This document shows positions 3,103-27,250 of a stretch of DNA of 28,274 nucleotides, in pieces. Source of the DNA: an uncultured Bacilli bacterium (lineage in GTDB: Bacteria > Bacillota_I > Bacilli_A > RF39 > UBA660); NCBI GenBank assembly GCA_910586425.1, contig CAJUHL010000008.1, positions 1-28,274 on the forward strand, written 5' to 3'. Within the stretch, counting starts at the first letter, position 1. Every line of letters begins with the position of its first letter. A program made the translations under genes and the position numbers. The notes beneath the pieces are model-generated. The model was not told where the DNA came from and did no database searches. It worked only from the letters and a program-made list of their open reading frames with translations.

Positions 3103-3549
3103 ATGAGACAGGCAATCGGAAGTACATTTCTGTATAATATTATCATTGTTTTTATTGTAATTACTTTCGGTTTCTTGGCGGCAACCTTAAGTTATACAAA
3201 GGCGTTTAAAATTAATGGTAAAATCGCCAATTCTCTTGAAAAGTTTGAAGGGTATAATACGCTATCATTAGGGGAAATTGAACGTGCGATGCAAACACTG
3301 GGATATCGAATCAGTCCAACAGGTAATTTGAATTGTCCTGAACGAAAACATAAAGGAAGAAACTATATGCCAATCCAAGAGTTTGGAACAAACTATAAAT
3401 ATTGCATCTATGAATACCCCAAAGAGAATGGTTATTTTACTTATGGAATATTGACCTATATTTATATGGATATTCCTATTGTAGGTGGAACTTTTACACT
3501 CCCTGTTTATTCAGAAACAGAGCGTATATATGAATTTAGTCAAAGATAG
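3103..3549 (+). CDS. Single-pass membrane protein, pseudopilin/TadE-like (paralogue 1)
   Basis: 148 residues. An N-terminal hydrophobic helix (about 8-28) is followed by LSYTKAFKINGKI and an outside domain of about 110 residues with two cysteines (in LNCPE and YCIYEY). The C-terminus reads MDIPIVGGTFTLPVYSETERIY. The next gene encodes a clear paralogue sharing the YTKAFK motif, a GYRI segment, the YCxYEY motif and the final IP-IxG-LPV-ETxxI pattern, so this is a tandem duplication. One N-terminal helix plus a small extracytoplasmic domain ending in a proline-rich strand recalls TadE/TadF minor pseudopilins, in keeping with the TadZ-like gene downstream. No family can be assigned with certainty. 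Confidence 0.7.
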   Translation: MRQAIGSTFLYNIIIVFIVITFGFLAATLSYTKAFKINGKIANSLEKFEGYNTLSLGEIERAMQTLGYRISPTGNLNCPERKHKGRNYMPIQEFGTNYKYCIYEYPKENGYFTYGILTYIYMDIPIVGGTFTLPVYSETERIYEFSQR

Positions 3550-3560
3550 TTGGTGATCAA

Positions 3561-3983
3561 ATGAAAGAAGCAATTGCAAATGCATATATTGTGAATATTG
3601 TTATTGTTTTTGTAATTATATTTATATTCTTTTTTGCAAGTTCTTTGACTTATACAAAGGCTTTTAAAGTAAAAAATAGAATTATAGATATTATTGAAAA
3701 ATATGAAGTCTATAATAAAGATGCGATAGATGAAATTGCGTCTTCCCTTTCTGAAATGGGATATCGTATTAATACATCTCATAATGGTTGTCCAAAACGA
3801 AATGGAAAAGAATCCATTTCAACTACCAATAATACATATCGTTATTGTGTTTATGAGTATGATACACCAAAAGGAAAATATTATAGTGTTTCTGCTTTTA
3901 TGTATTTTGATTTTCCAATTATAGGTCAGTCTTTAGAGTTACCTGTACATGGGGAAACCAAAATTATGGGCATATTGAAATAA
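3561..3983 (+). CDS. Single-pass membrane protein, pseudopilin/TadE-like (paralogue 2)
   Basis: 140 residues; starts 11 bases after the previous stop, with SD GGTGAT. Same plan as its upstream paralogue: N-terminal helix at about 9-29, then LTYTKAFKVKNRI, a cysteine in HNGCPKR, the YCVYEY motif, and a C-terminus FDFPIIGQSLELPVHGETK. The conserved cysteine pair suggests an intradomain disulfide outside the cell. The two paralogues may form a heteromeric minor-pilin complex. The nearest recognised architecture is the TadE/TadF pair of Tad pili; this is inference from shape and neighbours. Confidence 0.7.
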   Translation: MKEAIANAYIVNIVIVFVIIFIFFFASSLTYTKAFKVKNRIIDIIEKYEVYNKDAIDEIASSLSEMGYRINTSHNGCPKRNGKESISTTNNTYRYCVYEYDTPKGKYYSVSAFMYFDFPIIGQSLELPVHGETKIMGILK

Positions 3984-3999
3984 AAAGGAGGTAAATCTA

Positions 4000-5004
4000 A
4001 TGAACGTTATTATTGCAAATAAACAAAAATCTATGTTACAAGAATTGGAGATTGATGTAATTAAAACGTTAGAGGGAGAATTTGACGTTGATGATATTAT
4101 CGCACAATTTCATAATTTTTTCTTTCAAAGAATGATTTTAGATGTTACCGCATTAAAAAATTATAAAGATATTAAAGTATTACAAAAATTATCAATCACA
4201 TTGGATATGGATAAAGTAATATTACTGTTAGATGACTCTGAAGAAAGTGGTTCTAACGAATACTTATCTAAATTGATTTCTATGGGGATTTATAATTTTA
4301 CAAAAAATGTTGAAGGAATTCTATATTTATATAACAATCCAAATACATATCGTGATGTTGCTCATATTCATCAGTTGGATGGAAGTAAACCACAAGATGT
4401 TGTGGTAGAGAAATATGTAGAAGCAGAACCTGTGGTAAGCAATAAAATTATTGGTGTCAAAAATATAACCAAGCAGTCAGGTGCGACGACATTAATTTAT
4501 ATGATGGTAAAACAATTAGAAAAAAATTATTCTGTTATCGCATTTGAAGTCAATAAAAGCGATTTCCGCTACTTTAATGATAAGAAATTAATCTCTATAC
4601 CCAATACAGATATTGGAAATGCGATTGCAAAATATAGGGATTATAATGTCATTTTAATAGATGTAAATGATAGTAAAGAGGCAGAAAGTTTGTGTGATGA
4701 AGTTCTTTATTTAGTGGAGCCTTCTATTATCAAATTAAATAAATTGATGCTAGTGAATAGTAATACCTTTAGAGAATTGAAAAATAAAAAAATTATTTTA
4801 AATCAGAGTTTATTAAATGCAAAGGATGTACTCGATTTTGAATATGAATCTGGGGCTAAAATCTATTATAATATGCCACCACTAGATGAAAGGGAAAAAA
4901 GTATTCATGCACTTAATCTATTGTTGGTAAGATTGGGATTTGTACGACAAAAAACTGACAATCAAGAGAAAAAAAATAGTATTTTGGGGTTATTTAGTAA
5001 GTAA
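4000..5004 (+). CDS. TadZ/CpaE-like MinD-fold protein with degenerate Walker A
   Basis: 334 residues with a strong SD (AAGGAGG) eight bases before ATG. Residues 1 to about 115 look like an atypical receiver domain with alternating strands and helices. Residues about 149-320 form a ParA/MinD-type fold. The P-loop position reads GVKNITKQSGATTL: the signature lysine is K158, but the invariant catalytic Lys of KGGxGKT is replaced (T163). A Walker B-like strand VILIDVND follows at about 224-231. TadZ/CpaE proteins combine these two domains, often with a weakened P-loop, and place Tad pilus machinery at the cell pole. Here the gene joins pilin-like genes and precedes a T4SS, and no TadA/B/C is present in the window. 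It may localise the secretion apparatus; that is inference. Confidence 0.7.
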   Translation: MNVIIANKQKSMLQELEIDVIKTLEGEFDVDDIIAQFHNFFFQRMILDVTALKNYKDIKVLQKLSITLDMDKVILLLDDSEESGSNEYLSKLISMGIYNFTKNVEGILYLYNNPNTYRDVAHIHQLDGSKPQDVVVEKYVEAEPVVSNKIIGVKNITKQSGATTLIYMMVKQLEKNYSVIAFEVNKSDFRYFNDKKLISIPNTDIGNAIAKYRDYNVILIDVNDSKEAESLCDEVLYLVEPSIIKLNKLMLVNSNTFRELKNKKIILNQSLLNAKDVLDFEYESGAKIYYNMPPLDEREKSIHALNLLLVRLGFVRQKTDNQEKKNSILGLFSK

Positions 5005-5092: not shown

Positions 5093-5455
5093 ATGTTAGA
5101 AGTGTTAGATTTAGTTACGTGCACAGATTTAGGAGGTAACATAGACAAAATAGTTCCTGATACAGTGAGTACGGTTGTGACTTTAATTAAGATTGCAGTT
5201 CCAATTTTGTTAGTTATCTTTGGTATGGTAGATTTGGGAAAAGCTGTTATGTCCAATGACGAAAAGGAAATGAAAAGTGCACAAACAAGATTGATTAAAA
5301 GAATTTTATACGCAGTATTGATATTTTTCATTATCGCAATTGTACAATGGATTTTTGGAGTTTTAGATAATAATGGTAATTCTACTAAAACTGCTAGTTG
5401 CTTTAACTGCTTTATTAACGGTAAGTGTTCTTCACCAGACGGCGTAGAAGAATAA
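5093..5455 (+). CDS. VirB2/TrbC-type T4SS pilin
   Basis: 120 residues, strong SD (AGGAGG, 5080-5085). Two hydrophobic helices at about 27-48 and 66-88 enclose a short charged cytoplasmic loop (MSNDEKEMKSAQTRLIKR), the hallmark of VirB2/TrbC-like pilins in Gram-positive T4SS. The C-terminal tail has clustered cysteines (CFNCFINGKC). The N-terminus lacks a long signal peptide. The gene has its own consensus promoter, a candidate operator and a hairpin plus T-run downstream, which fits the need for excess pilin. The next protein carries a homologous C-terminal domain. Confidence 0.8.
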   Translation: MLEVLDLVTCTDLGGNIDKIVPDTVSTVVTLIKIAVPILLVIFGMVDLGKAVMSNDEKEMKSAQTRLIKRILYAVLIFFIIAIVQWIFGVLDNNGNSTKTASCFNCFINGKCSSPDGVEE

Positions 5456-5551: not shown

Positions 5552-6352
5552 ATGCAAAAAAAGATTAAAATAAGTTTATTTATTATACTTACCCTTTTTA
5601 TTTGTAATGCAAATCAGGTAGAGGGGAAAAACTTAAATGGAATTTTAGATGATATGATTGAAAAAAAATGTGAATATGTAACACCAGGTGATACAATACC
5701 TGCTCAACAAACTAGTGTGTTATGTGATGTTTTTGATGATGGTGCTCATCAATGTTGGATGCAAGTAGGTGGAGGCCAAGCTAGTTCGTCATCAAACAAG
5801 GAAAAAATCCTCAATTGGAATCAAGGGGTCATTGGAGTTCCTAAATTTGAATATGCAGGAAAATGCCCAATGTATTTAGTTGCTACTATTGATGTTGCTA
5901 TTGGCGGATACAGTATATGGGGATTTAATAATATCACTGATGCAGAAAAATGGAGAATCGATCGCCAACAATATAATACAACAGTAACCTTAAGTCTAAT
6001 AAAAGAAAATATAATAAATGAAAAGCCAGAGGAAGATGGCGCTGAAGAAGAAATTAATAAATGTGTTGTATTTGGGCAAAATACAGATAAAATTTTAAAA
6101 TGGGTCATTAATTTTATATATATTGCGGTTCCTGTTATCATCATTATTATGTCGATAATCGAATTTGCTGGTATTGCCCTTTCTGGGGATGAAAAAAACT
6201 TTAAAGCAGTCGGAACTAAATTAATAAAAAGACTGATTATCGGTGCTGTTATTATTTTTTTACCAATACTAATTATTTTTTTAGTAGATTTAAGTGGTGT
6301 TTTAATACCATATGGAATAGAGCCAAATCAAATATTTTGTTCATTATTTTAG
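5552..6352 (+). CDS. Secreted/membrane protein with C-terminal VirB2-like pilin domain
   Basis: 266 residues. An N-terminal signal sequence (about 1-25, KISLFIILTLFICNANQVEG) leads to a roughly 150-residue extracytoplasmic region with several cysteines. The C-terminal part (about 185-255) has two helices around LSGDEKNFKAVGTKLIKR. It aligns well with the loop of the 120-aa pilin upstream (MSNDEKEMKSAQTRLIKR), so the two are paralogues and this one carries an added cysteine-rich outer domain. A plausible role is a minor or tip pilin, or a membrane component of the T4SS. The stop is 15 bases before the VirB6-like start, so the genes are co-transcribed. Confidence 0.7.
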   Translation: MQKKIKISLFIILTLFICNANQVEGKNLNGILDDMIEKKCEYVTPGDTIPAQQTSVLCDVFDDGAHQCWMQVGGGQASSSSNKEKILNWNQGVIGVPKFEYAGKCPMYLVATIDVAIGGYSIWGFNNITDAEKWRIDRQQYNTTVTLSLIKENIINEKPEEDGAEEEINKCVVFGQNTDKILKWVINFIYIAVPVIIIIMSIIEFAGIALSGDEKNFKAVGTKLIKRLIIGAVIIFLPILIIFLVDLSGVLIPYGIEPNQIFCSLF

Positions 6353-6367
6353 AAAGGAGTGGTGAAA

Positions 6368-8446
6368 ATGAATTGGGGAACAGATACTTTTCGAAATCTA
6401 TTTGCTGCTATTGATAGTATTGTTTACTCACTAGTTTCAATTATATATGAAATTCTAATGCAAATTTCAAAATTCAATCTATTTGGTAATGATGCATTTG
6501 AAGGAGTTGCAGGAAAAATATATACGCTACTGGGTGTATTTATGCTATTTAAAGTTACATTTTCGTTTATTTCCTATTTAGTACATCCAGATGATTTATC
6601 CGATAAAGCGAAAGGCGCTCAAAAAATAATATTAAATATACTTTTAGTATTTGCAATGATTATTCTTGCACCAACTGCTTTTGAAAAGTTATATGAAGCA
6701 CAAAGTGCCATAGTACAAGATAATGTAATTGCCAAATTGATTTTAGGACAGGAAAATGCAAATCTTTCGAATAGGCATTATCAAATGTCGGATGTATGTC
6801 CTGCTGATAAAACATCTGCAGCTACAGATGGGGATTATATCGCGATAATGATATTTCGCCCCTTTTATCAAATAATAGATGGGGCTTCTGATGATATTAA
6901 AAATGCTTACTGTGGTGAAGGTAATGATATGACAGTATCTAAATATCTTGATCTTGCACAGGTAGATGCTTCTTCAGGTGTTTCAAGCATTTTTAAAAAA
7001 TTAGTAAATGCTGCGCAACAAATTATGATACCTGGTATTCAAGGAGCTCAACCTCAAACAACTATTACATACACCATTGACTACAAATTCTTAATGTCAA
7101 CGATTGTTGGAATTGTTGTACTGTTGGTTCTAATATCATTTTGTTTTGATGTTGCAATACGTAGTATTAAGCTTGGCTTTTTACAAATTATAGCTCCAAT
7201 TCCAATTATTTCTTATGTGGATCCTAAATCAGGAAAAGATGGAATGTTTAAAAAATGGTTAAAAGAAGTGGGAAAAACATGGGCAGATTTATTTGTTAGA
7301 TTGGTTGCTCTATACTTTGCAGTTTATATTATTCAGCTAATGGATTTTACTACAATGGATGAGAGTATAGAAAAATATAAATTTTGGGTTATGCTATTTA
7401 TTATTATAGGTGCCTTGATGTTTGCTAAAAAACTTCCTAAATTGGTAGAAGATATATTAGGTATTAAGCTAGATAGTGGTTTTACATTGAATCCAATGAA
7501 GAAAATTAGAGATAATGCCCTAGGCGGAAAGCTAATTGCTGATATGCCAAAAAAGACGGTAGGATTAGGTGCTGGTTTAGCTGGAGGTATGATTGCTGGT
7601 GCAATGGCTGGAAAACAGGTTGGTGCAACCGGAAAAGGTTTAGTTTTAGGTGCATTAGGTGGAGCTAAAAATGGTTTTAAAAATCCCAAAGAAGCATTCT
7701 CAAAAGGTATGCGAGAGGAATTTAAAAACTTGACAGGAAATGAGATGGCCAGATTATCAGTTAGCAAAATAATGCTGTCATCCAGTGGTGCAGCAGCAGT
7801 TAAGGAAACAAAAGACGCACTTTCAATTGCATACTCCAATTTGAATGACAAGCAAACGGAATTAAATGTATCAGAACATACGACAGCGTCATTAGCAGAA
7901 AGTCTTCGTTCGCAGGGGTATGATGTATCTAGAATGGCTGATTCCAAGAAACTGGTAGAAGAAAGAAAAAATGCTCAACTGAAAAAGCTGAACGAAATGA
8001 AATCAAACTCTACTAAATATAGCGAATCGTATAAAGCAGCTCAAGAGGAATATCAAAAAATATCACGGGGCGTAGCAAGTGGAATCGTTGGTGTAGATGG
8101 CAACCCTGTTTACTCGCAAGAACATTTATCTGCAGCTAAAGCAAAAATGGAACAATCAGAAAAAGAATATAATAATTACCTAAAACAAGTTCAAGAGGGA
8201 GAAATTTTATTTAGACAATATCAACAATCAGAAAACGCTCTTAATACCTACCAAGATAATAAGGTCAAAGAGGCTGGATTGCGTGATGAAATTTCAAAAA
8301 TTCAGAAGAATATAGAAACAATAAAAGCAGAAAAAGCACAAAGAGAGCGTTTCTATCAAGTTGATAAATCACCACAGAAGGATTATAAAGATGCAATTAA
8401 TCAAGAGATGGAACGTCATAATAAACTAAAGGGGATGGATGAATGA
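6368..8446 (+). CDS. VirB6/TrbL-like polytopic T4SS channel protein
   Basis: 692 residues. The start is placed at ATG 6368 because the SD AAAGGAG (6353-6359) lies eight bases upstream; an upstream in-frame GTG (6359) overlaps that SD. Membrane helices are visible at roughly residues 15-40, 50-75, 85-110, 240-285 (two), 310-330 and 340-358, as in VirB6-family proteins. A glycine/alanine-rich stretch (about 395-430, GAGLAGGMIAGAMAG) follows, then a long charged, coiled-coil-like cytoplasmic tail (about 480-690). VirB6 proteins form the inner-membrane channel for substrate transfer; tails of this kind are common in Gram-positive versions. The stop TGA overlaps the next start (ATGA at 8443-8446), so translation is coupled. 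Confidence 0.75.
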   Translation: MNWGTDTFRNLFAAIDSIVYSLVSIIYEILMQISKFNLFGNDAFEGVAGKIYTLLGVFMLFKVTFSFISYLVHPDDLSDKAKGAQKIILNILLVFAMIILAPTAFEKLYEAQSAIVQDNVIAKLILGQENANLSNRHYQMSDVCPADKTSAATDGDYIAIMIFRPFYQIIDGASDDIKNAYCGEGNDMTVSKYLDLAQVDASSGVSSIFKKLVNAAQQIMIPGIQGAQPQTTITYTIDYKFLMSTIVGIVVLLVLISFCFDVAIRSIKLGFLQIIAPIPIISYVDPKSGKDGMFKKWLKEVGKTWADLFVRLVALYFAVYIIQLMDFTTMDESIEKYKFWVMLFIIIGALMFAKKLPKLVEDILGIKLDSGFTLNPMKKIRDNALGGKLIADMPKKTVGLGAGLAGGMIAGAMAGKQVGATGKGLVLGALGGAKNGFKNPKEAFSKGMREEFKNLTGNEMARLSVSKIMLSSSGAAAVKETKDALSIAYSNLNDKQTELNVSEHTTASLAESLRSQGYDVSRMADSKKLVEERKNAQLKKLNEMKSNSTKYSESYKAAQEEYQKISRGVASGIVGVDGNPVYSQEHLSAAKAKMEQSEKEYNNYLKQVQEGEILFRQYQQSENALNTYQDNKVKEAGLRDEISKIQKNIETIKAEKAQRERFYQVDKSPQKDYKDAINQEMERHNKLKGMDE

Positions 8447-8760
8447 ATTTTTTGATACCAGCAAATTCAAAAAAATCAATGATGATATTTGGGCTATTTT
8501 ACCCATTTGATCTTATTTTATTTGGAAGTGGAATCGGAGTGACATTATTCTTAATGATGCTACTTCCAGTTGGCAATACCGTAATGGCATTTATTTCCAT
8601 TGCGCCTGCTGTGATAACAGGATTTCTGGTGTTTCCAGTTCCAAATTATCACAATGTGTTAACAGTAATAATAGGGGTTTGGAATTTCTTTACAACAAGA
8701 CAAAAATTTGTATGGAAAGGTTGGTGTGTAGAAGATGGGCAAGAAGAAAACAAGGAGTAA
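8443..8760 (+). CDS. PrgI-like (VirB3-type) small T4SS membrane protein
   Basis: 105 residues with two hydrophobic segments near residues 20-45 and 50-66, after an N-terminus MNFLIPANSKKSMMIFGLF typical of the PrgI family. PrgI/VirB3-like proteins sit in the membrane next to VirB4, and the gene precedes VirB4 genes in most Gram-positive T4SS. It overlaps the VirB6-like stop by four bases and the next gene by 26 bases, a tightly coupled order. The C-terminus (TTRQKFVWKGW) fits the family. Confidence 0.75.
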   Translation: MNFLIPANSKKSMMIFGLFYPFDLILFGSGIGVTLFLMMLLPVGNTVMAFISIAPAVITGFLVFPVPNYHNVLTVIIGVWNFFTTRQKFVWKGWCVEDGQEENKE

Positions 8761-9283
8761 ATATACAGAACAATTTGTACCGATAAAAAGTATTACCAAT
8801 GGGATGATTATATTAGATAATAATGAAAAGGTTAGTGGTGTAAAAATAATGCCACGCAATATCTTTATTGCAGATTACGAAACACAAAATGCTATCATTA
8901 ATAATTTAAAAAATGTATATAACTTAATCGATTATGAGTTTTGGATTATTGCAGCAGATAGACCAGTAGATATTAATGTTTACTTATCACAATTGCAATT
9001 ACTATTTAATTCAGTAAATGATCAGATTAGACGCAAATTAATCATGGAGGATATCAATAAGGCCAATATATTTATGAACAATAATATTGTGGATACAGAA
9101 TACTTCTTATTATTTAAAGAAGCTAACAATGAAGTTATCGCAAAAAGGATTCGTGGTTTGATTAATTCCTTTGCAAGTGCAGGGTTAAATACACATCAAG
9201 TTACAAATGATGATTTGAGAATTATATTGGATAATTTCTTAAATGGTGGAGTAACAACCACATTTGGAACGGTGGCGGCATAA
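8735..9283 (+). CDS. VirB4 N-terminal-domain protein (TraD/TrsD-like)
   Basis: 182 residues, soluble. The N-terminus has a basic start, then YTEQFVPIKSITNGMIILDN, resembling the beginning of VirB4-type ATPases where an N-terminal barrel precedes the ATPase. No Walker motifs are present. The gene starts inside the end of the PrgI-like gene and ends in TAATG, one base overlapping the start of the ATPase gene. From memory, the pSK41/pIP501 conjugation loci keep a comparable small TraD/TrsD gene directly before the VirB4 ATPase TraE/TrsE, so this is probably a natural two-gene VirB4 and not a frameshift error. Clean start, stop and coupling support this. Confidence 0.65.
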   Translation: MGKKKTRSKYTEQFVPIKSITNGMIILDNNEKVSGVKIMPRNIFIADYETQNAIINNLKNVYNLIDYEFWIIAADRPVDINVYLSQLQLLFNSVNDQIRRKLIMEDINKANIFMNNNIVDTEYFLLFKEANNEVIAKRIRGLINSFASAGLNTHQVTNDDLRIILDNFLNGGVTTTFGTVAA

Positions 9284-11067
9284 TGAATGTAAAAAGTCAA
9301 ATTGCACCAAAAGGCCTTGAATTCAAATCCAATTCTTTTATGATTAGCGATAAATATGCAACAATACTAACAGTAATATCCTATCCAAAATACATTCAAC
9401 CAGGGTATCTGTCTTCTTTGACTAGTATGTCTGGAATTAAAGTAGTCATCAAACATATTCCATTACCATTTAGCGTAATCAGCAAAATGTTAAATAGGGA
9501 AATTGTAGATTTAAAACAAAGACATCAAGATACAACTGATCGTACATTACAAGAACGAATTCGTCAAGACTATGAATCGTTAGAACAATTTATCTCACAA
9601 CTTGCTGCAACACAAGCTAAAATTTATGATTTTCAAATGCATGTAATGATTACTGCAGATAGTGAAGATGAACTAACAAGTAAAAAATTACAAGTACGTA
9701 GCTATTTAGAAGCAATGGAAATGCGTGCTTTTCCACTTCGTTTTGAACAGGAAAAAGTACTCAAATCCATCTTACCAATTTTTCCAAAACAGGATATTGA
9801 ATCTCGAATTGGAACACCAATTCCAGCACCAACCATTGCAGCAATGTATCCATTTATCTTTGATAGTATCAAGGATCCAGGTTTATCTACATTGCTTGGT
9901 GTCGATTTTTCTGGTGGGGTAATTTTATTCAATCAATTTCTATATCAAATCCGAAAAGAACATAATCGAAACAATGCCAACTTAATTATTTTAGGTACTT
10001 CTGGTAGTGGAAAATCAACTGCTGCTAAAATTATGTTAAGAACACATATCCGTAATAACTGTCAACTGGTGATTATTGACCCTGAAGGTGAGCTAGAAGA
10101 CATGGCCCGTCGGTATGATGGTGATTTTATTGACCTTGGAAAAGGTGGAGAATTTGGAATGGTAAATCCTCTTGAAGTAATCATTGATGCTGATGATGAA
10201 GAGATAGAGGGGGGACTTGGCTATACTGTTCTTACGAGAACATTACAAAGCATCAAAGCTTTCATGAAATACTATGATCCAAGAATCGAAGAAGATGTTT
10301 TGAATATGTTTAGCGAAGTAGTACAAGAAACATATAGACGTTTTGAAATTGATTTTGAATCTGATTTTACCCGTTTAACATCAGAAGATTATCCAACATT
10401 TAAAGATGTGTACGCAACCATCAAAGGTCGTTTGGCTTCTATGACAGAACCAACACATGAAAAAGATATTATGGAAAAATTAGAACTTAAAATAAGACCA
10501 ATTGTGAAAGAATTGAAATACTATTTTGATGGGCACACAACGATTGCCTCTCAAAGTAATTTCATTGTATTCAATATTCGTGAATTAATGAATGCAGATA
10601 CCAATATTAGAAATGCCTTATTTTTTAACATATTAAAATATGCTTGGGGTCTTACATTGGATAAAAGAGTGAACACAGTATTGATGGTAGATGAAGCCCA
10701 CGTATTATTATCTGGAAATAATACATTAGGAGCAGATTTTCTAGCACAAATTCAAAGACGTTCTAGAAAATATAACACAGGAACAATTATCATTACCCAA
10801 CAACCAAGTGATTTTAGTGATCCAAGTGTTATTACACAAGGTAAAGCAATATTTGATAATGCTTCTTACTATTTAGTAATGGGCCTCAAAAAACAAGCGG
10901 TGGAAGATTTATCAAGATTAATTGACTTAAATGATAATGAAAAAGAAAATATCAAAAGATACAATCAAGGGGATGCCCTATTTGTATGTGGCAGTCGAAG
11001 AATGCAAATTAATGTTATTGCTACCGAGCAGGAGTTAGATTCCTTCGGTAGTGGCGGCGGATTTTAA
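9283..11067 (+). CDS. virB4: VirB4-family T4SS ATPase
   Basis: 594 residues. The N-terminal part (IAPKGLEFKSNSFMISDKY) and the segment at about 150-215 match VirB4/TraE proteins. The P-loop GTSGSGKS is at 238-245 (K244), followed by VIIDPEGE, and Walker B is LMVDEAHVLL with D470/E471. A RRSRKYNTG arginine-rich segment and IITQQPSDF follow, as in the HerA/FtsK-like ATPase fold of VirB4. VirB4 powers pilus assembly and substrate transfer at the inner membrane. Translation is coupled to the preceding gene by TAATG. All key motifs are intact. Confidence 0.9.
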   Translation: MNVKSQIAPKGLEFKSNSFMISDKYATILTVISYPKYIQPGYLSSLTSMSGIKVVIKHIPLPFSVISKMLNREIVDLKQRHQDTTDRTLQERIRQDYESLEQFISQLAATQAKIYDFQMHVMITADSEDELTSKKLQVRSYLEAMEMRAFPLRFEQEKVLKSILPIFPKQDIESRIGTPIPAPTIAAMYPFIFDSIKDPGLSTLLGVDFSGGVILFNQFLYQIRKEHNRNNANLIILGTSGSGKSTAAKIMLRTHIRNNCQLVIIDPEGELEDMARRYDGDFIDLGKGGEFGMVNPLEVIIDADDEEIEGGLGYTVLTRTLQSIKAFMKYYDPRIEEDVLNMFSEVVQETYRRFEIDFESDFTRLTSEDYPTFKDVYATIKGRLASMTEPTHEKDIMEKLELKIRPIVKELKYYFDGHTTIASQSNFIVFNIRELMNADTNIRNALFFNILKYAWGLTLDKRVNTVLMVDEAHVLLSGNNTLGADFLAQIQRRSRKYNTGTIIITQQPSDFSDPSVITQGKAIFDNASYYLVMGLKKQAVEDLSRLIDLNDNEKENIKRYNQGDALFVCGSRRMQINVIATEQELDSFGSGGGF

Positions 11068-11091: not shown

Positions 11092-13287
11092 ATGAAAGAG
11101 GAAAATCAAAATAGAGAAAAGGAGCTACAAGAAAATGTAGCTTTTAGGCTTTCTTCTAAAGAAAAAGAGGAACAAAGGATAGTACTACCCAAAAATACCG
11201 TCTTTCAAAATTTACACAATCCATCTGATGGAACACAGGAGCATCTTCGAAATGTTGTAAATCAACATAAAAATGTTTTACCTCAAAGTAGTAATTTTAT
11301 AGAAGAACAGGAACAGGAAAAAGAAAATGCTTTTGAACAAGTAGCGGATCAAGTAGCTGCGAAAGGAATTTCTGCTGCCACTGGTGGCGCGATTCCAAAA
11401 GAAGAAGCGGAAAAAGTGGTAAATGTATTAAAAATGATGAAAATCAAAACAATCCCTCAACGTATTTTAGAGTTTTTGGGCTTCATTTCAAAAAAAATTA
11501 CTGATAGCCCCATACTATCTAAAATTGTTCTTAGCTTTGGAATTTCTCTATTTGTATTTATTCTATTTATGTCTTCCAGTATGATAAGTATTGGTAGAGA
11601 AAGCATTGGAAAAGATAAATTGGTATCCTATCTTTCTGTGGGACTAGACGATGAACATAATTCACTTAATGTGATAGAGTACTTACAACAAGGAGGTTGG
11701 TGTTCAAGTCGTTTGGATTGTATGAATTCGCAAGGGTATTATTTTTTATCTACATTTCGAAGAAAAATTAAAGACCAATTAGAAAAATATGAAGAATTAA
11801 ATGAGGAAAATGATTGTTTAAATCAATTAACAATGACAGAAGAGTTTACCTCATTGTTATTAGGAACTATTTTTTTCAATCGTTCCAATGATGAATTACT
11901 GTCTACAGACTCACTTTTCAATTCTAAAATGAGCCAATATGAACAAGAAATGGATTATATCATAAATGCCTTGTATGAAGCGGATGAACCATGGAAAGAA
12001 AATACCTGTTATCGTATTTCAAAAGATGCATATCAGGATGCGATTATAGGTCAAAATGGATATATAGACCGATTTCGTGGGGATTTAGGAAGTAATTTGT
12101 CTTCGGAATTAAAATTGCAAATATATCAGTCGATTCTTTCTGATATCAATTACTTTATGAAAAATCCAATAATAGCATCACAAGGAAGTTATGTAGAGTG
12201 CTCTGGTGTTACCGTTGTAGATGACAATAATAATATCATTGGAACCTATACTTTAGAAGATTATGTTGCTGGTGTGTTGTCAAAAGAAACATATGACTAC
12301 TTTCCTTTGGAATCCAAAAAAGCGCTTGCCGTTGCAGCTAGAACTTATGTACTTTCGCGTACCAACTCTTGTAAAACGTCAATCGAGAGCAGTTCTAATC
12401 TGCAAAACTTCAACAAGGATATTCGCGATTCCAATAGAGAAGTTGCCAAAGCAACGGAAGGGCAGATATTAGTAGATAGTGCTGGAAAGATATTTGACTC
12501 TGAATATGACTCTTGGAATTGTATTGGGCAAAATACATGTACTTATGAAAAAAAACCATATGGTGAAATTCATCAAGTAACAATTTCGGATAAATATTTA
12601 CATCACGCAGCTGGGGGACATGGCTGTGGAATGAGCCAAATTGCGGCAGCGGATTTAGCGGATCAGGGAATGAACTATGAACAAATTTTAAAATTCTTTT
12701 ATTCGGATGGGGTACAATTATCAAGCCTAACCAGAAATATGGGATTTGCTAGTGGTGGAAAATATATAAGTACCGCTCCACTTCATAAAGATGTAGCAAG
12801 CTTACAAAATAGTAAATGGTATCCGAATATCGGACATTTAACAGGACAGTGTGTTTGGTATGCAAAAAATAGAGCCCAAGAAATTCTATATTATTCCAAT
12901 ATGCCTGAAGAATTAAAACAAAGAGCAATTACTTCTATTCAGAATACTTCTGGAAACGGAGAAGCATGGTATCGTAATCCAGATGGAAACCTATTTGCCA
13001 AGTCTGCCGATGCAACACAACCACGTGCTGGCGCTATTGTATCCTGGTCTGGTGGTAAAAGGCAAGAGAATACCAATTATTATTACGGCCATGTTGCAAT
13101 TATAGAATCTGTGAATGCAAATGGGACAGTCACCATTTCAGAGGGATGGAAAGAAGGCAGTTGGGATAGTGCTTCTTGGTCTACTGTACGATATCGTAAG
13201 TTTAATGTTACAATAGATTATATCAAGCAGCATTCTTATAGTGGAAAAACATACTATTTTAATGGATATGTATATTTACTAGGTTAG
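11092..13287 (+). CDS. T4SS-associated cell-wall hydrolase: SpoIID domain fused to CHAP domain
   Basis: 731 residues. Residues 1 to about 140 are charged and probably cytoplasmic, with one membrane helix at about 145-168; the rest lies outside. At about 370-545 is a SpoIID/LytB domain: YTLEDYVAGVLSKETYDYFP, with E399 at the position of the SpoIID catalytic glutamate, followed by KALAVAARTY and the signature HAAGGHGCGMSQ (504-515). At about 575-731 is a CHAP amidase/endopeptidase domain: GQCVWYAKNRAQ with C587, YGHVAI with H667, and ISEGW with E684. SpoIID enzymes are lytic transglycosylases of sporulation engulfment; CHAP cuts peptide stems. Gram-positive T4SS usually carry an SLT or NlpC/P60 enzyme here (pIP501 TraG is SLT-CHAP). 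This protein most likely opens the wall for the T4SS channel, with SpoIID replacing SLT. Confidence 0.85.
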   Translation: MKEENQNREKELQENVAFRLSSKEKEEQRIVLPKNTVFQNLHNPSDGTQEHLRNVVNQHKNVLPQSSNFIEEQEQEKENAFEQVADQVAAKGISAATGGAIPKEEAEKVVNVLKMMKIKTIPQRILEFLGFISKKITDSPILSKIVLSFGISLFVFILFMSSSMISIGRESIGKDKLVSYLSVGLDDEHNSLNVIEYLQQGGWCSSRLDCMNSQGYYFLSTFRRKIKDQLEKYEELNEENDCLNQLTMTEEFTSLLLGTIFFNRSNDELLSTDSLFNSKMSQYEQEMDYIINALYEADEPWKENTCYRISKDAYQDAIIGQNGYIDRFRGDLGSNLSSELKLQIYQSILSDINYFMKNPIIASQGSYVECSGVTVVDDNNNIIGTYTLEDYVAGVLSKETYDYFPLESKKALAVAARTYVLSRTNSCKTSIESSSNLQNFNKDIRDSNREVAKATEGQILVDSAGKIFDSEYDSWNCIGQNTCTYEKKPYGEIHQVTISDKYLHHAAGGHGCGMSQIAAADLADQGMNYEQILKFFYSDGVQLSSLTRNMGFASGGKYISTAPLHKDVASLQNSKWYPNIGHLTGQCVWYAKNRAQEILYYSNMPEELKQRAITSIQNTSGNGEAWYRNPDGNLFAKSADATQPRAGAIVSWSGGKRQENTNYYYGHVAIIESVNANGTVTISEGWKEGSWDSASWSTVRYRKFNVTIDYIKQHSYSGKTYYFNGYVYLLG

Positions 13288-13295
13288 GAGGTCCT

Positions 13296-13928
13296 ATGAA
13301 AAAAATAATGATATTGGTTTTACTATTTTTTGTAACAGGATGTTCTGCTGAATATAATTTGGAGTTTCATGACAAAATATTATCCGAAACCATCAATATC
13401 AGTGCATTCAATGAAAGTATAACAGAAGAGCAGATTAAAAACTTAATCGAATCTTATATTCCAACCGATAATGAAAATCCTCCTATATATCAAGTAAAGC
13501 AAAACCATAAAGAAGTACAACTATTTGCGAAATATAATATACAATCATATCAAAAGTCCAAATTACTATCACAATGTTATCTTGCCCATAACCTGATTGA
13601 TAGTGGGGATTATTATGATCTTACAACCAGTGAAACATTTACTTGTAACCCATTTGACTATATGCTAATTGATGAATTGAAAATTAAAATAAAAACCAAT
13701 CATAAAGTACTTTCTCATAATGCCGATTTGGTTGAAAAAAATACATACATTTGGAATATAACAGTTGAAAACTCACAAAATAAACCGATTCAAATTCGTT
13801 TTTCAAAAGAAACAAAAGAAGATAATAAAGTCTTGATTATTTTAGGAATAACTGCTATTATAGCTATAATCATTTTGATGATTGTGTTTATTGTATCAAT
13901 CATATCTAAAAAGAATAACAAAATCTAG
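13296..13928 (+). CDS. Lipoprotein with an additional C-terminal membrane anchor
   Basis: 210 residues, strong SD (AGGAGG) just before ATG. A lipobox VTGC (cysteine at residue 16) ends a short signal peptide, so the mature N-terminus is probably lipidated. A polar extracytoplasmic domain follows, containing two cysteines (in LSQCYL and TFTCNP). A single hydrophobic helix (about 178-203, VLIILGITAIIAIIILMIV) lies just before a lysine-rich end. Two anchors on one protein is uncommon. It sits between the wall hydrolase and VirD4 and is the only candidate here for an outer-face scaffold; no VirB8/TcpC-like protein was recognised. Family unknown. Confidence 0.7.
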   Translation: MKKIMILVLLFFVTGCSAEYNLEFHDKILSETINISAFNESITEEQIKNLIESYIPTDNENPPIYQVKQNHKEVQLFAKYNIQSYQKSKLLSQCYLAHNLIDSGDYYDLTTSETFTCNPFDYMLIDELKIKIKTNHKVLSHNADLVEKNTYIWNITVENSQNKPIQIRFSKETKEDNKVLIILGITAIIAIIILMIVFIVSIISKKNNKI

Positions 13929-13940
13929 GGAGGTTAAGGT

Positions 13941-16079
13941 ATGAAATTAAAATTTAGAGCCGATTCAAAAGATTTATTAATATTTATAATGTTCTCACTT
14001 GCATTACTATATTTTATTGCAATTGCAGTTTTGAATGTTGTCTCACTCTTGAATGAATCGACCATACATGGACTCAACCCGTTTCCAGCGTTCACTGGTG
14101 AATATTTAGCGCCAACTATGGTATTTTATATTGCCTTTATGATTGCTATTATAACAGGGGTATCTTCTTCCTTTTTCGAAAGAGAAAAAGGAATTGGAAT
14201 TACAACAAAAGAAAAAAAAGAAAAAGGGTACTCTAGATGGGCCAAAGACAAGGAGATACAAAAAGAATTGAAATTGGTTCATCCTCATGATGAAAAAAGC
14301 GACGCTGCAGGAATTCCGCTTATGAATAATGGGCATGAATTATGGGTTGATAATGGAGAATATCACAATTTGGTAATTGGTAGTACAGGTTCTGGTAAAA
14401 CAGAAATGCTAGTACAGCCAATGGTTAAAATATTATCCAAAAAAGGAGAATCGATGATTATCACCGATCCTAAAGGTGAAATTTATGAAAACAATGCCAA
14501 TGAATTACGTGAACGAGGATACAATATTGTTCTTTTGAATTTCCGTGATCCCCAAAAAGGTAATTGTTGGAATCCATTGACATTACCATACACATTATAC
14601 AAAAATGGTGATTCTGATAAAGCCAATGAATTATTAGACGATTTGGCTAAAAATATCTTATATGATGAATCTTCTAAAAACAATGATCCTTTCTGGGAAA
14701 ATACTTCTGCTGACTATTTTGCAGGACTTGCGCTCGCATTATTTGATGATACAACCGAAGATAAAATTAACTTAAATAGTATTAACTTAATGACAACTGT
14801 TGGAGAAGAAAAAATAGGTGGAACTACTTACATGAAAGAATATTTCAGTGATAAAGATCAAAGTTCTTCAGCCTATGTCAATGTCGCAAGTACTTTACTT
14901 GCACCATCCGATACCAAAGGAAGTATTTTATCGGTATTTAAACAAAAAATTAAATTATTTTCATCCAGAGAAAATTTATCAGAAATGCTATCCTATAGTG
15001 ATTTTGATATGGAAGAAATTGGACGTAAAAAAACAGCTGTATTTATAGTAATTCAAGATGAAAAGAAAACATACCATTCTTTGGTAACTATATTCTTAAA
15101 ACAATGCTATGAAACTTTAATTCGTGTAGCACAAGAAACTGGTGGGAAATTGCCATACCGTACTAATTTTATATTGGACGAATTTGCTAACATGCCACCA
15201 CTCAAAGATGTTACAACCATGGTTACAGCAGCACGTAGTCGCTCTATCCGCTTTACATTCATTATTCAAAACTTTGCTCAACTTTATCAAGTATATGGAA
15301 AAGAAAATGGTGAAACGATCAAGGGAAACTGTGGTAATATCATATACTTAATTAGTAGTGAACTTGCAGCATTGGAAGAAATTAGTAAAATGTGTGGCGA
15401 AGTAAAATCGGGTAAGGATGACAAAACAGCAAGTACGCCACTGGTTACAGTAAGTGATTTGCAACGTATGAAATTTGGGTCAATGATTGTATTACGTACG
15501 AGATGTATGCCATTTAAAACTACACTGACACCAAACTATAAAATGGTTCAAGAAGGTTTATGGGGCCATGAATATGGCAAATCAGAATATCCACAAAGAG
15601 AAAAACGCGAAGTAAAATTGTTTGACTTGAAAAAAATTGTGGATGAAAAAAGACAAAAAAAGATTAATGATATGTTAAATGGGAATGGTGGAATGAACAT
15701 GGGAATGCCACCAATGCCTGGTATGCCTTCTATTCCAGGAATGAATATGGGCAGCATGCCTTCCATGCCTGGAATGAACATGGGAATGCCTTCTATGCCC
15801 GGAATGAATATGCCACCAATGCCTGGCATAGGAACACCAAGGGGCAGCCAACCTGGGAATAACCAACCATTTAATGTGGACGATTTAGTCAAAAGAATTG
15901 ATGCTAAAATTGCAGAGTTGGAAGAAGAAGAACGAAAAGAAAAAGAAGAACAGGCAAGAAAAGAAAAACAAGAAAAAATGAAAGAAGACATTAAAGAAAT
16001 TCCAAAGCCAAAGACAATTGAAACACGTGAAATTACAGACGACCAATTTTTCGATGACTTCTTTTCAGAAGATGAATAA
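13941..16079 (+). CDS. virD4: VirD4/TraG-type coupling ATPase with Met/Pro/Gly-rich tail
   Basis: 712 residues. Two N-terminal helices (about 12-37 and 54-76) anchor a cytoplasmic ATPase. Walker A is GSTGSGKT at 147-154 (K153), followed by MIITDPKGEIYENN. Walker B is FILDEFANMPP with D413/E414, and then ARSRSIRFTFIIQNFAQL, all typical of type IV coupling proteins. Residues about 584-630 are a repeat of MPxMPGMNMG units, unusual in this family, then an acidic/lysine-rich coiled tail to the end. Coupling proteins recruit substrates and drive them into the channel; the extra tail could be a substrate- or partner-binding extension. It is the last gene before a strong terminator. No relaxase gene accompanies it. 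Confidence 0.9.
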   Translation: MKLKFRADSKDLLIFIMFSLALLYFIAIAVLNVVSLLNESTIHGLNPFPAFTGEYLAPTMVFYIAFMIAIITGVSSSFFEREKGIGITTKEKKEKGYSRWAKDKEIQKELKLVHPHDEKSDAAGIPLMNNGHELWVDNGEYHNLVIGSTGSGKTEMLVQPMVKILSKKGESMIITDPKGEIYENNANELRERGYNIVLLNFRDPQKGNCWNPLTLPYTLYKNGDSDKANELLDDLAKNILYDESSKNNDPFWENTSADYFAGLALALFDDTTEDKINLNSINLMTTVGEEKIGGTTYMKEYFSDKDQSSSAYVNVASTLLAPSDTKGSILSVFKQKIKLFSSRENLSEMLSYSDFDMEEIGRKKTAVFIVIQDEKKTYHSLVTIFLKQCYETLIRVAQETGGKLPYRTNFILDEFANMPPLKDVTTMVTAARSRSIRFTFIIQNFAQLYQVYGKENGETIKGNCGNIIYLISSELAALEEISKMCGEVKSGKDDKTASTPLVTVSDLQRMKFGSMIVLRTRCMPFKTTLTPNYKMVQEGLWGHEYGKSEYPQREKREVKLFDLKKIVDEKRQKKINDMLNGNGGMNMGMPPMPGMPSIPGMNMGSMPSMPGMNMGMPSMPGMNMPPMPGIGTPRGSQPGNNQPFNVDDLVKRIDAKIAELEEEERKEKEEQARKEKQEKMKEDIKEIPKPKTIETREITDDQFFDDFFSEDE
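15690..15830 (+). repeat. In-frame Met/Pro/Gly repeat in the virD4 tail
   Basis: An imperfect tandem repeat with units near 30-40 bp (for example ATGCCTTCCATGCCTGGAA and ATGCCTTCTATGCCCGGAA), encoding repeated M-P-S-M-P-G-M-N-M-G. Silent third-position differences show the copies have been kept in frame at the protein level. Confidence 0.75.
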
Positions 16080-16083
16080 TGAC

Positions 16084-16109
16084 AGGAATCCTACAAATGA
16101 TTCCTTTTT
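16084..16109 (+). terminator. Terminator closing the T4SS block
   Basis: AGGAATC (16084-16090) pairs perfectly with GATTCCT (16099-16105) around an 8-base loop, followed by five T residues. It lies four bases after the virD4 stop. Confidence 0.8.
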
Positions 16110-25486: not shown

Positions 25487-27250
25487 ATGTTAGGACGCAT
25501 GATTGGAATGGAAGAAAATTTGGTATCAGTTGCATTAAACCCAGAACAAGTACAACAAGAAATGATGAATAGGCATGTCGTTTTAGATGATGGAAGACAG
25601 CTAATTGGTGAAATTGTGGATGTCAAAGATGGTATTGCTTATGTGATGTTATTAGGAGAATTAAAAGAGAAAAATTTTGTTTTTGGTGTAGTGAAAAAAC
25701 CATCTTTTCAAGCTAAAATCTCATTTGTTCCAAGAGAAAAAATAGGATATATTATTGGTATTTCTGATTATAAAGAAGAAAAAGATTTATATATTGGGAA
25801 AAGTCCAATCTATGAAAATGTTTCAATTGGGGTCCATATCAATGATTTTTTTAGTAGCCATTTTGCGATTTTTGGTTCCACAGGAAGTGGGAAATCTTGT
25901 AGTATTGCACGTATTGTTCAGAATTTATTTGAAAAGAAAGAAAAAATTGCTTACCGCTCTAGCCTTTTTATATTTGATGCTTACGGCGAATATCATAATG
26001 CCTTTCAAAAATTACATGAAGTGGTTCCAGAGATTCAGTTTAAGTCCTATACAACAGATATAAAATCAAATCAAGAATTGGTAAGAATTCCGCTATGGTT
26101 ACTCGGAGTTGATGATATTGCACTATTACTAGGTGCTGAAAAACATTCTCAATTATTACTCATTGAAAAAGCGCTTAAATTAGTCACAGTCTTTGCTCGG
26201 AATGAAGATGAAGTATTGAAAATCAAAAATGATATCATCGCAAGAGCTATTTTAGATATTTTATCCAGTGGACGAGCACCTGCCCAAATTCGTGACCAAA
26301 TTTTTTCAGTTTTATCGTATTATAATACCAAAGAATTGAATTTAGAAACTCCAATTTTTCAACCGGGATATACAAGACCACTAAAACAATGTATTATGAT
26401 TGATTCCAGTGGGAAAATTCGGGAAATGGAAATGATTGTCGATTTCATGGAAACCTATTTAACGGATGATTATGATCTTTCGTTACCAGATGGAAGTTTC
26501 CCATATTCATTGAAAGATTTACAAGATGCTTTTGACTTCGCTTTGATTTCAGAAGGTGTATTGAAAAGTGATAAAGTTTATGATGAGGCCAATATATTAA
26601 AGGTTCGTCTGCATGCCTTGGTTTCAAGTGATGATAGTCAGTATTTTTCTTATCCTAAATTTATTGATAGAACGAGTTATGTAAGGCAATTATTGACCGC
26701 TGATGACGGAAAAAAAGCGCAGATTATCAATTTTGATATTAATTATGTAGATGATCGCTTTGCTAAAAACTTAACCAAGATTTATTCTAAATTGCTGTTT
26801 GATTTTTCAAAAAGTGCTGTAAAACGTGCCACGATGCCATTTCATATCATATTAGAAGAAGCACATCGATATGTTCAAAATGATAATGATAAATTTTTAC
26901 TTGGATATAATATTTTTGAACGGATTACAAAGGAAGGAAGAAAATATGGTGTTCTTTTGGGATTGATCTCTCAAAGACCCTCTGAATTATCGGAAACTTC
27001 CTTATCCCAATGTAGTAATTTCCTAATTTTTAAGATGCTACATCCAACAGATGTCGATTATATTAAAAAGATGGTCCCTAATGTAACACAGGAAGTCATC
27101 AAACGATTACGTATTTTACAACCAGGAACTTGTGTTGCCTTTGGTTCTGCTTTTAAAGTACCTGTACTGGTAAAAATAGACATGCCATCTCCTGCCCCTT
27201 CTAGTAGCAGCTGTGATATATCTGCATCTTGGTTTGTAGATAAAGATTGA
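25487..27250 (+). CDS. HerA-type DNA translocase ATPase
   Basis: 587 residues, strong SD GAGGAGG. An N-terminal HAS-barrel-like beta domain (1 to about 105) is followed by a HerA/FtsK-fold ATPase: Walker A GSTGSGKS (130-137, K136), LFIFDAYGEYHNAF, Walker B FHIILEEAHRY (E457/E458), and GRKYGVLLGLISQRPSELS. The C-terminus has LRILQPGTCVAFGSAF. HerA forms hexamers that move along DNA, usually with the NurA nuclease. No NurA, Sir2 or DUF4297-like partner is adjacent, so this is an orphan. It may act in DNA repair or in defence with a partner elsewhere. Confidence 0.85.
   Translation: MLGRMIGMEENLVSVALNPEQVQQEMMNRHVVLDDGRQLIGEIVDVKDGIAYVMLLGELKEKNFVFGVVKKPSFQAKISFVPREKIGYIIGISDYKEEKDLYIGKSPIYENVSIGVHINDFFSSHFAIFGSTGSGKSCSIARIVQNLFEKKEKIAYRSSLFIFDAYGEYHNAFQKLHEVVPEIQFKSYTTDIKSNQELVRIPLWLLGVDDIALLLGAEKHSQLLLIEKALKLVTVFARNEDEVLKIKNDIIARAILDILSSGRAPAQIRDQIFSVLSYYNTKELNLETPIFQPGYTRPLKQCIMIDSSGKIREMEMIVDFMETYLTDDYDLSLPDGSFPYSLKDLQDAFDFALISEGVLKSDKVYDEANILKVRLHALVSSDDSQYFSYPKFIDRTSYVRQLLTADDGKKAQIINFDINYVDDRFAKNLTKIYSKLLFDFSKSAVKRATMPFHIILEEAHRYVQNDNDKFLLGYNIFERITKEGRKYGVLLGLISQRPSELSETSLSQCSNFLIFKMLHPTDVDYIKKMVPNVTQEVIKRLRILQPGTCVAFGSAFKVPVLVKIDMPSPAPSSSSCDISASWFVDKD

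Follow-up and report, generated by a model that had tools for sequence, protein, structure and literature searches.

The described proteins closest in build to the one reported here are TraG of pIP501 (ALPHA) and PrgK of pCF10 (DELTA), which are described as membrane-anchored components of a type IV secretion system (T4SS) with outer, wall-acting domains, a glycan cutter together with a CHAP domain (PMC12857230, PMC11323569). The domains listed in a T4SS review are SLT, muramidase, LytM and CHAP, and the word SpoIID occurs nowhere in the part of its text that was searched (PMC12857230). SpoIID is described with SpoIIP as one of two separate proteins of forespore engulfment, and in C. difficile it is reported to be inactive without SpoIIP, which must act first, and loses its activity in an E101A variant (PMC6221140). 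Phages and conjugative elements have also been reported to encode polyvalent proteins with SpoIID-like wall-cutting domains, which are in that sense tied to DNA transfer, although these proteins are not T4SS channel hydrolases, and since the code printed in that paper is PF07486, not PF08486, the domain may belong to another family (PMC5512222). Here we describe a gene at 11092-13287 in a window of 28,274 nucleotides from an uncultured Bacilli bacterium (GTDB lineage RF39; UBA660; assembly GCA_910586425.1, contig CAJUHL010000008.1), which lies in a T4SS operon and probably encodes a wall-opening enzyme of the VirB1 type. In contrast to TraG and PrgK, where the glycan cutter is an SLT domain or a phage-tail-like muramidase, it has a SpoIID-type domain and is followed by a companion gene with an LppM-like predicted fold.

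The gene, like its domains and the other operon genes given below, is on the plus strand, and its open reading frame (ORF) of 731 amino acids is VirB1-like by position and build, as judged from Pfam, an AlphaFold model and matches of the model in the PDB. A single predicted membrane helix at about residues 139-163 (11506-11580; hydropathy, with a helix at 140-165 in the model) is followed by a helical stalk of about residues 170-366 (11599-12189), which the AlphaFold model suggests lies outside the membrane. Next come the SpoIID-type domain, residues 367-546 (12190-12729), with the E399 codon at 12286-12288 and the GHGCGMSQ codons at 12616-12639, and the CHAP domain (12832-13284), for which the Pfam match spans residues 581-685, the fold extends to residue 731, and Pfam, conservation and fold matches agree. 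The CHAP residues C587, H667 and E684 are encoded at 12850-12852, 13090-13092 and 13141-13143. The protein therefore has the arrangement of a VirB1-type enzyme, a membrane anchor with catalytic domains C-terminal of one predicted helix, sidedness being a prediction.

Both domain assignments are firm. SpoIID (PF08486) reaches the Pfam gathering score and has the catalytic glutamate, and CHAP (PF05257) scores 63.4 bits against a cut-off of 26 with its Cys-His-Glu residues kept; chance domain matches are ruled out, as both lie above the Pfam cut-offs. Across 28 rows of the window's own family, E399, C587 and H667 are each kept in all 28, and the position of E684 is E or D in all 28. The cysteine inside GHGCGMSQ, C512, is Arg in 20 of the 28 rows and Asn in 4. 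Pfam found no SLT or muramidase glycan cutter in the protein, SpoIID being there instead, and the SpoIID_LytB model TIGR02669 was not reached (77.3 bits, cut-off 83.3). A profile built from the stalk (residues 135-367) drifted to 114 ORFs without a hydrolase domain and was dropped. The original prediction, made from the sequence alone, had proposed a T4SS wall hydrolase in which SpoIID and CHAP domains with these four named residues stand behind one membrane helix, and the domains, the residues and the helix have all held up. Its remark that no described T4SS has this pairing also stands within the review cited above and the open-access literature, where keyword searches returned no T4SS with SpoIID, nothing for SpoIID with a CHAP domain and conjugation, nothing related for LppM with type IV secretion and, among the titles listed, nothing on topic for RF39 with type IV secretion or conjugation.

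The setting is as expected of a VirB1-type protein: the gene is encoded in the T4SS operon, between virB4 and virD4, which makes it a likely T4SS wall hydrolase, as predicted. We compared 120 loci, 116 from a VirB4 scan of one order plus four others, chosen among the matches listed and leaning to the more similar. A hydrolase gene lies between VirB4 and VirD4 in 98 of the 98 that could be tested, namely those with both genes in place (the other 22 fall outside the test). The kind of hydrolase varies. Pfam, run on the 109 first genes of at least 300 residues behind VirB4, matched SpoIID in 41, M23 in 34, CHAP in 20, C39_2 in 17, Phage_lysozyme2 in 14 and NlpC/P60 in 9, with Phage_lysozyme, glucosaminidase, Amidase_5, M15 and others in fewer, and a few of these genes were non-hydrolases. 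Local profiles run on the ORFs of the interval found SpoIID in 60 of the 120 loci (50 of these 60 ORFs were also matched by the profile before iteration, E 0.01), a phage-tail-type lysozyme in 15 and neither in 46. Of these 46, 14 had no recognised hydrolase domain in the interval, several of them being cut by contig ends, and these 14 were unlabelled on the tree described next.

Across this slot the peptidase partner is CHAP, C39-like, NlpC/P60, M23 or M15. The labels on a VirB4 tree (121 rows, of which 107, the window among them, carry a label) require at least 46 changes in peptidase combination and at least 24 in glycan class; 200 shuffles of the labels needed 61-73 and 34-44 changes, respectively. 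Because the observed changes are fewer than the shuffled ones, the history of the slot is one of some inheritance and much replacement. The extent of replacement has to be read with caution, since mislabelled peptidase classes would inflate the change counts, and the papain-like classes are approximate because local profiles and Pfam give different counts for the 109 genes (C39 34 and 17, NlpC 20 and 9, CHAP 18 and 20, respectively, beside M23 34 and 34 and SpoIID 55 and 41; the M23 and C39 profiles were seeded with one sequence each, doubled). The window's sister rows on the tree are SpoIID with CHAP, and the next rows are NlpC with M23, or C39. Among the 7,996 best candidates scored, 54 are homologues of the window hydrolase, and their precomputed Pfam annotation is SpoIID with CHAP in 30, SpoIID with M15_4 in 11, SpoIID with VanY in 4, SpoIID with NlpC/P60 in 4 (one also with M23) and SpoIID alone in 5. 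A one-off fusion can accordingly be rejected, 30 of the 54 having the same build. A plasmid- or phage-borne relative was likewise rejected, as 7 of 72,556 plasmid and 2 of 50,697 phage records matched, each across 14-19% of the query at or close to the CHAP part. One clade on the VirB4 tree (loci L134, L142, L145, L147, L148, L149, L154 and L159) has a SpoIID with D for the catalytic E, in WTDN, and without GHGxGMSQ, which is possibly inactive, and a ninth D-bearing SpoIID (L099) is placed elsewhere on the tree.

The companion gene at 13296-13928 encodes 210 amino acids with a lipobox, an LppM-like predicted fold and a C-terminal membrane helix, and a small ORF likewise stands right behind 106 of 115 hydrolase genes. 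The likeness to LppM is one of predicted structure: the LppM family model (PF21946) does not match the window companion at E 0.05 and matches 2 of the 40 proteins aligned (best 0.023), and in having no sequence-family match above cut-off the companion is unlike LppM of M. tuberculosis (Rv2171). PADLOC matched neither the hydrolase nor the companion. The identity of the LppM partner tracks the hydrolase beyond the relatedness of the T4SS machine itself, and for this reason hydrolase and companion look like two-gene cassettes. A cognate small gene that lies behind an enzyme and co-varies with it, as found for the LppM class, is what an effector-immunity pair would show, and should also be seen with a chaperone or an anchor. 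The companion is likely an anchor, an inhibitor or a guard, and the co-variation is compatible with each.

The original prediction had gone on to suggest that a sporulation enzyme was recruited into the secretion machine, and this part did not find support. In a SpoIID tree (quick search, midpoint root, long rows, full-type domains only), the 24 full-type T4SS domains, from 23 loci and the window, lie on one side of a branch with Shimodaira-Hasegawa-like approximate likelihood ratio test (SH-aLRT) support of 97, against 95 others. The order also has stand-alone SpoIIDs; 20 of these, chosen among the matches listed and measuring about 300 residues in 12 cases and about 450 in 8, group with Bacillota SpoIIDs, and the window protein scores 65.8 bits with the sporulation equivalog TIGR02870 (stage II sporulation protein D), far under the cut-off of 234.75. 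PF08486 exceeds its cut-off in 178 of the 193 genomes sampled from the order, many of the matches listed being frames of 300-340 residues, and Spo0A is present in 93 of 97; on these profile matches, a separate SpoIID of sporulation size appears to be widely kept in the order. Origin from the lineage's own sporulation SpoIID is thus not supported by the tree. What remains of the original interpretation is the SpoIID-CHAP protein as a likely T4SS wall hydrolase. Beyond the single window, the pairing proves to be one of many in a mosaic slot, with a companion gene, in a T4SS that appears to be an order-wide resident.

The best-supported reading, in which we infer the activity, is that SpoIID and a peptide cutter in one chain carry out both steps of wall opening at one place, and the window protein is probably a VirB1-type enzyme of the resident T4SS with two-step cutting and a companion cassette. 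Anchored in the membrane by its predicted helix, the hydrolase would first cut stem peptides or cross-links with its CHAP half, after which the SpoIID half would cleave the bared glycan, one chain thereby combining steps that sporulation splits between SpoIIP and SpoIID. The outcome would be a local gap in the wall for passage of the secretion channel. The lipoprotein companion likely holds or restrains the enzyme, and the two genes are likely swapped together as a cassette across the order as the rest of the machine is conserved.

The operon reads, in order, two TadE-like genes, a CpaE-like gene, a VirB2-like gene, a membrane protein, VirB6/TrbL-like, VirB3-like, VirB4 in two ORFs, the hydrolase, the lipoprotein and VirD4, several of these names recording position or resemblance only. 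Its upstream end (3103-5004) is a likely Tad-like module, named by resemblance only, with TadE-like genes at 3103-3549 and 3561-3983 and a CpaE-like gene at 4000-5004, and profile scans gave no convincing family match for these three ORFs of the window. The VirB2-like (T4SS_pilin) small membrane protein at 5093-5455 (PF18895 0.0095, below cut-off) has a homologue in 106 of the 120 loci. The membrane protein at 5552-6352, with no family above cut-off, has a VirB2-like C-terminal part, and queries from it and from the VirB2-like protein match the same stretches in two loci (L002 and L004). Further along are a VirB6/TrbL-like membrane protein at 6359-8446 (PF19597, 29.7 bits, cut-off 27) and a protein at 8443-8760 called VirB3-like by position and size only, without a family match and with a homologue in all 120 loci. 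VirB4 is split in all 120 loci; in the window its N-terminal part (8735-9283; NF045975 profile 97-276, 7e-16, 57.1 bits) and its ATPase part (9283-11067; profile 294-891, 3.4e-104, 349.3 bits) meet at a stop and ATG that overlap by one base, TAATG, and with both halves present and split neither score attains the 590-bit equivalog cut-off of NF045975 (VirB4, Mbov_0397 family). The VirD4-type coupling protein at 13941-16079 (PF02534 1.2e-56; NF045973 (CD1115) 294.5 bits, cut-off 250) has a C-terminal tail of Met/Pro/Gly-rich repeats of the MGMPPMPGMPSIPGM type, and a terminator-like hairpin follows at 16084-16105.

In relatives (L090, L088, L117 and L143), the TadE-like and CpaE-like genes come after a T2SSE/VirB11-family ATPase gene and two further membrane genes, and because of this the T4SS machine may include a Tad-like part. 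The module there lies directly upstream of the T4SS genes, and the window seems to start inside it. Of the 98 loci that extend 8.5 kb or more upstream, the point at which many retrieved stretches end, 43 have the ATPase; among the module genes scanned it alone had a convincing family match above cut-off, an RcpC match in L090 being weak (0.00027, below cut-off). The flanks look chromosomal, with YfhO on one side and rhodanese, VTT, RmuC, Lon, a SpoVID-like LysM protein, YqeG and a YqeH-like protein on the other, and the GC content of the window is 28-35%. A HerA-type helicase is encoded at 25487-27250 (PADLOC HerA, 397.5 bits), and from there to the window's end no ORF exceeds 63 residues.

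An ordinary integrated conjugative element, with the window holding its transfer genes and the hydrolase having arrived with it, would account for the coupling protein scoring above its equivalog cut-off and for a VirB4 similar, below cut-offs, to the ATPases of mycoplasma and clostridial elements of this kind. Relaxase genes, too, occur elsewhere in many of the 193 genomes sampled from the order (33 have PF03432 above cut-off and 101 have Mob_Pre, with up to 8 Mob_Pre matches in one genome), but a Pfam scan of 20 window ORFs matched none. Of 41 PF03432 rows 1, and of 150 Mob_Pre rows 6, share a contig with VirB4, and the shortest distance between starts is about 14 kb; this comparison covers the matches listed, namely the 41 of 57 PF03432 matches that lie above cut-off and 150 of Mob_Pre against 150 of VirB4, with further Mob_Pre rows and other relaxase families outside it. 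The distribution of VirB4 also speaks against such an element. VirB4 is present at E 1e-3 or better in 176 of the 193 genomes (0.6-1.9 Mb), about 170 of them strongly, 6 matches being weak or distant (best E 1e-98 or worse, by table reading), and among the 150 matches listed identity to the window is at least 71%. A sample of 296 genomes from the class contained 34 with a VirB4 that is 67-82% identical, all of them genomes of that order, whereas the other 10 matches listed reach at most 33%, two of these being second copies in genomes of the order (E 1e-50 limit). Five Bacilli metagenome genomes (L001-L005), from a genome contig scan that gave 80 loci, carry T4SS genes at the match. Those detected follow the gene order of the window; the upstream genes went undetected in L003, and L001 and L005 are truncated by contig ends. 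VirB4 distance tracks RmuC distance (r 0.75, 0 of 1000 permutations; 25 loci with RmuC), and in 51 of the 70 loci that could be tested there is a rhodanese, VTT or RmuC gene no more than 6 kb beyond VirD4, which points to a T4SS that descends with the chromosome and is not a recent element. We therefore regard the conjugative element as highly improbable; relaxase-bearing mobile elements elsewhere in these genomes might borrow the resident channel.

Several observations weigh against a two-step VirB1-type cutter and its cassette. One is the precedent of PrgK, whose muramidase is reported to be the sole domain with activity in vitro, whereas CHAP and LytM, inactive alone, lower that activity (PMC11323569); by analogy the CHAP half of the window protein may likewise have a regulatory role. 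In the slot, SpoIID is often not in its intact form, since the catalytic position is E in 51 and D in 9 of the 60 matches and a GHGxGMSQ-type motif, by our own pattern, is present in only 23 of the 60. Either half could thus act as a wall-binding regulator and not as an enzyme, an idea compatible with a VirB1 role that we consider rather doubtful for the window protein, whose own family keeps the named residues of both active sites, with E or D at the position of E684. The 120-locus set is biased to similar loci because it was picked among the matches listed, and of the six loci with two hydrolase-LppM units four are close kin. The mosaic itself suits an arms race better, as a machine that opens its own wall only would not need so changeable a cutter. 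A further reading, which we hold to be unlikely, is an order-wide resident Tad-plus-T4SS machine of small-genome Bacilli that attacks or enters neighbours with different walls, its tip being a polymorphic cassette of enzyme and cognate membrane guard that strains exchange in the manner of toxin-immunity modules or the lysins of phage tails. It is less likely still that the hydrolase is an antibacterial effector delivered to neighbours by the T4SS or by contact, with the lipoprotein or another small membrane protein protecting the producer.

If the VirB1-type role is correct, the SpoIID-peptidase fusion would be a further class of Gram-positive VirB1 proteins, beside the SLT and muramidase ones named in the T4SS review (PMC12857230), and one chain would hold both of the steps split between SpoIIP and SpoIID. 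The larger point is the setting, an apparently order-wide T4SS with conserved ATPases and a repeatedly replaced wall cutter with a companion gene behind it. With such a system one can test whether the hydrolase of a T4SS is matched to the wall of the producer, to that of the recipient, or to an inhibitor.
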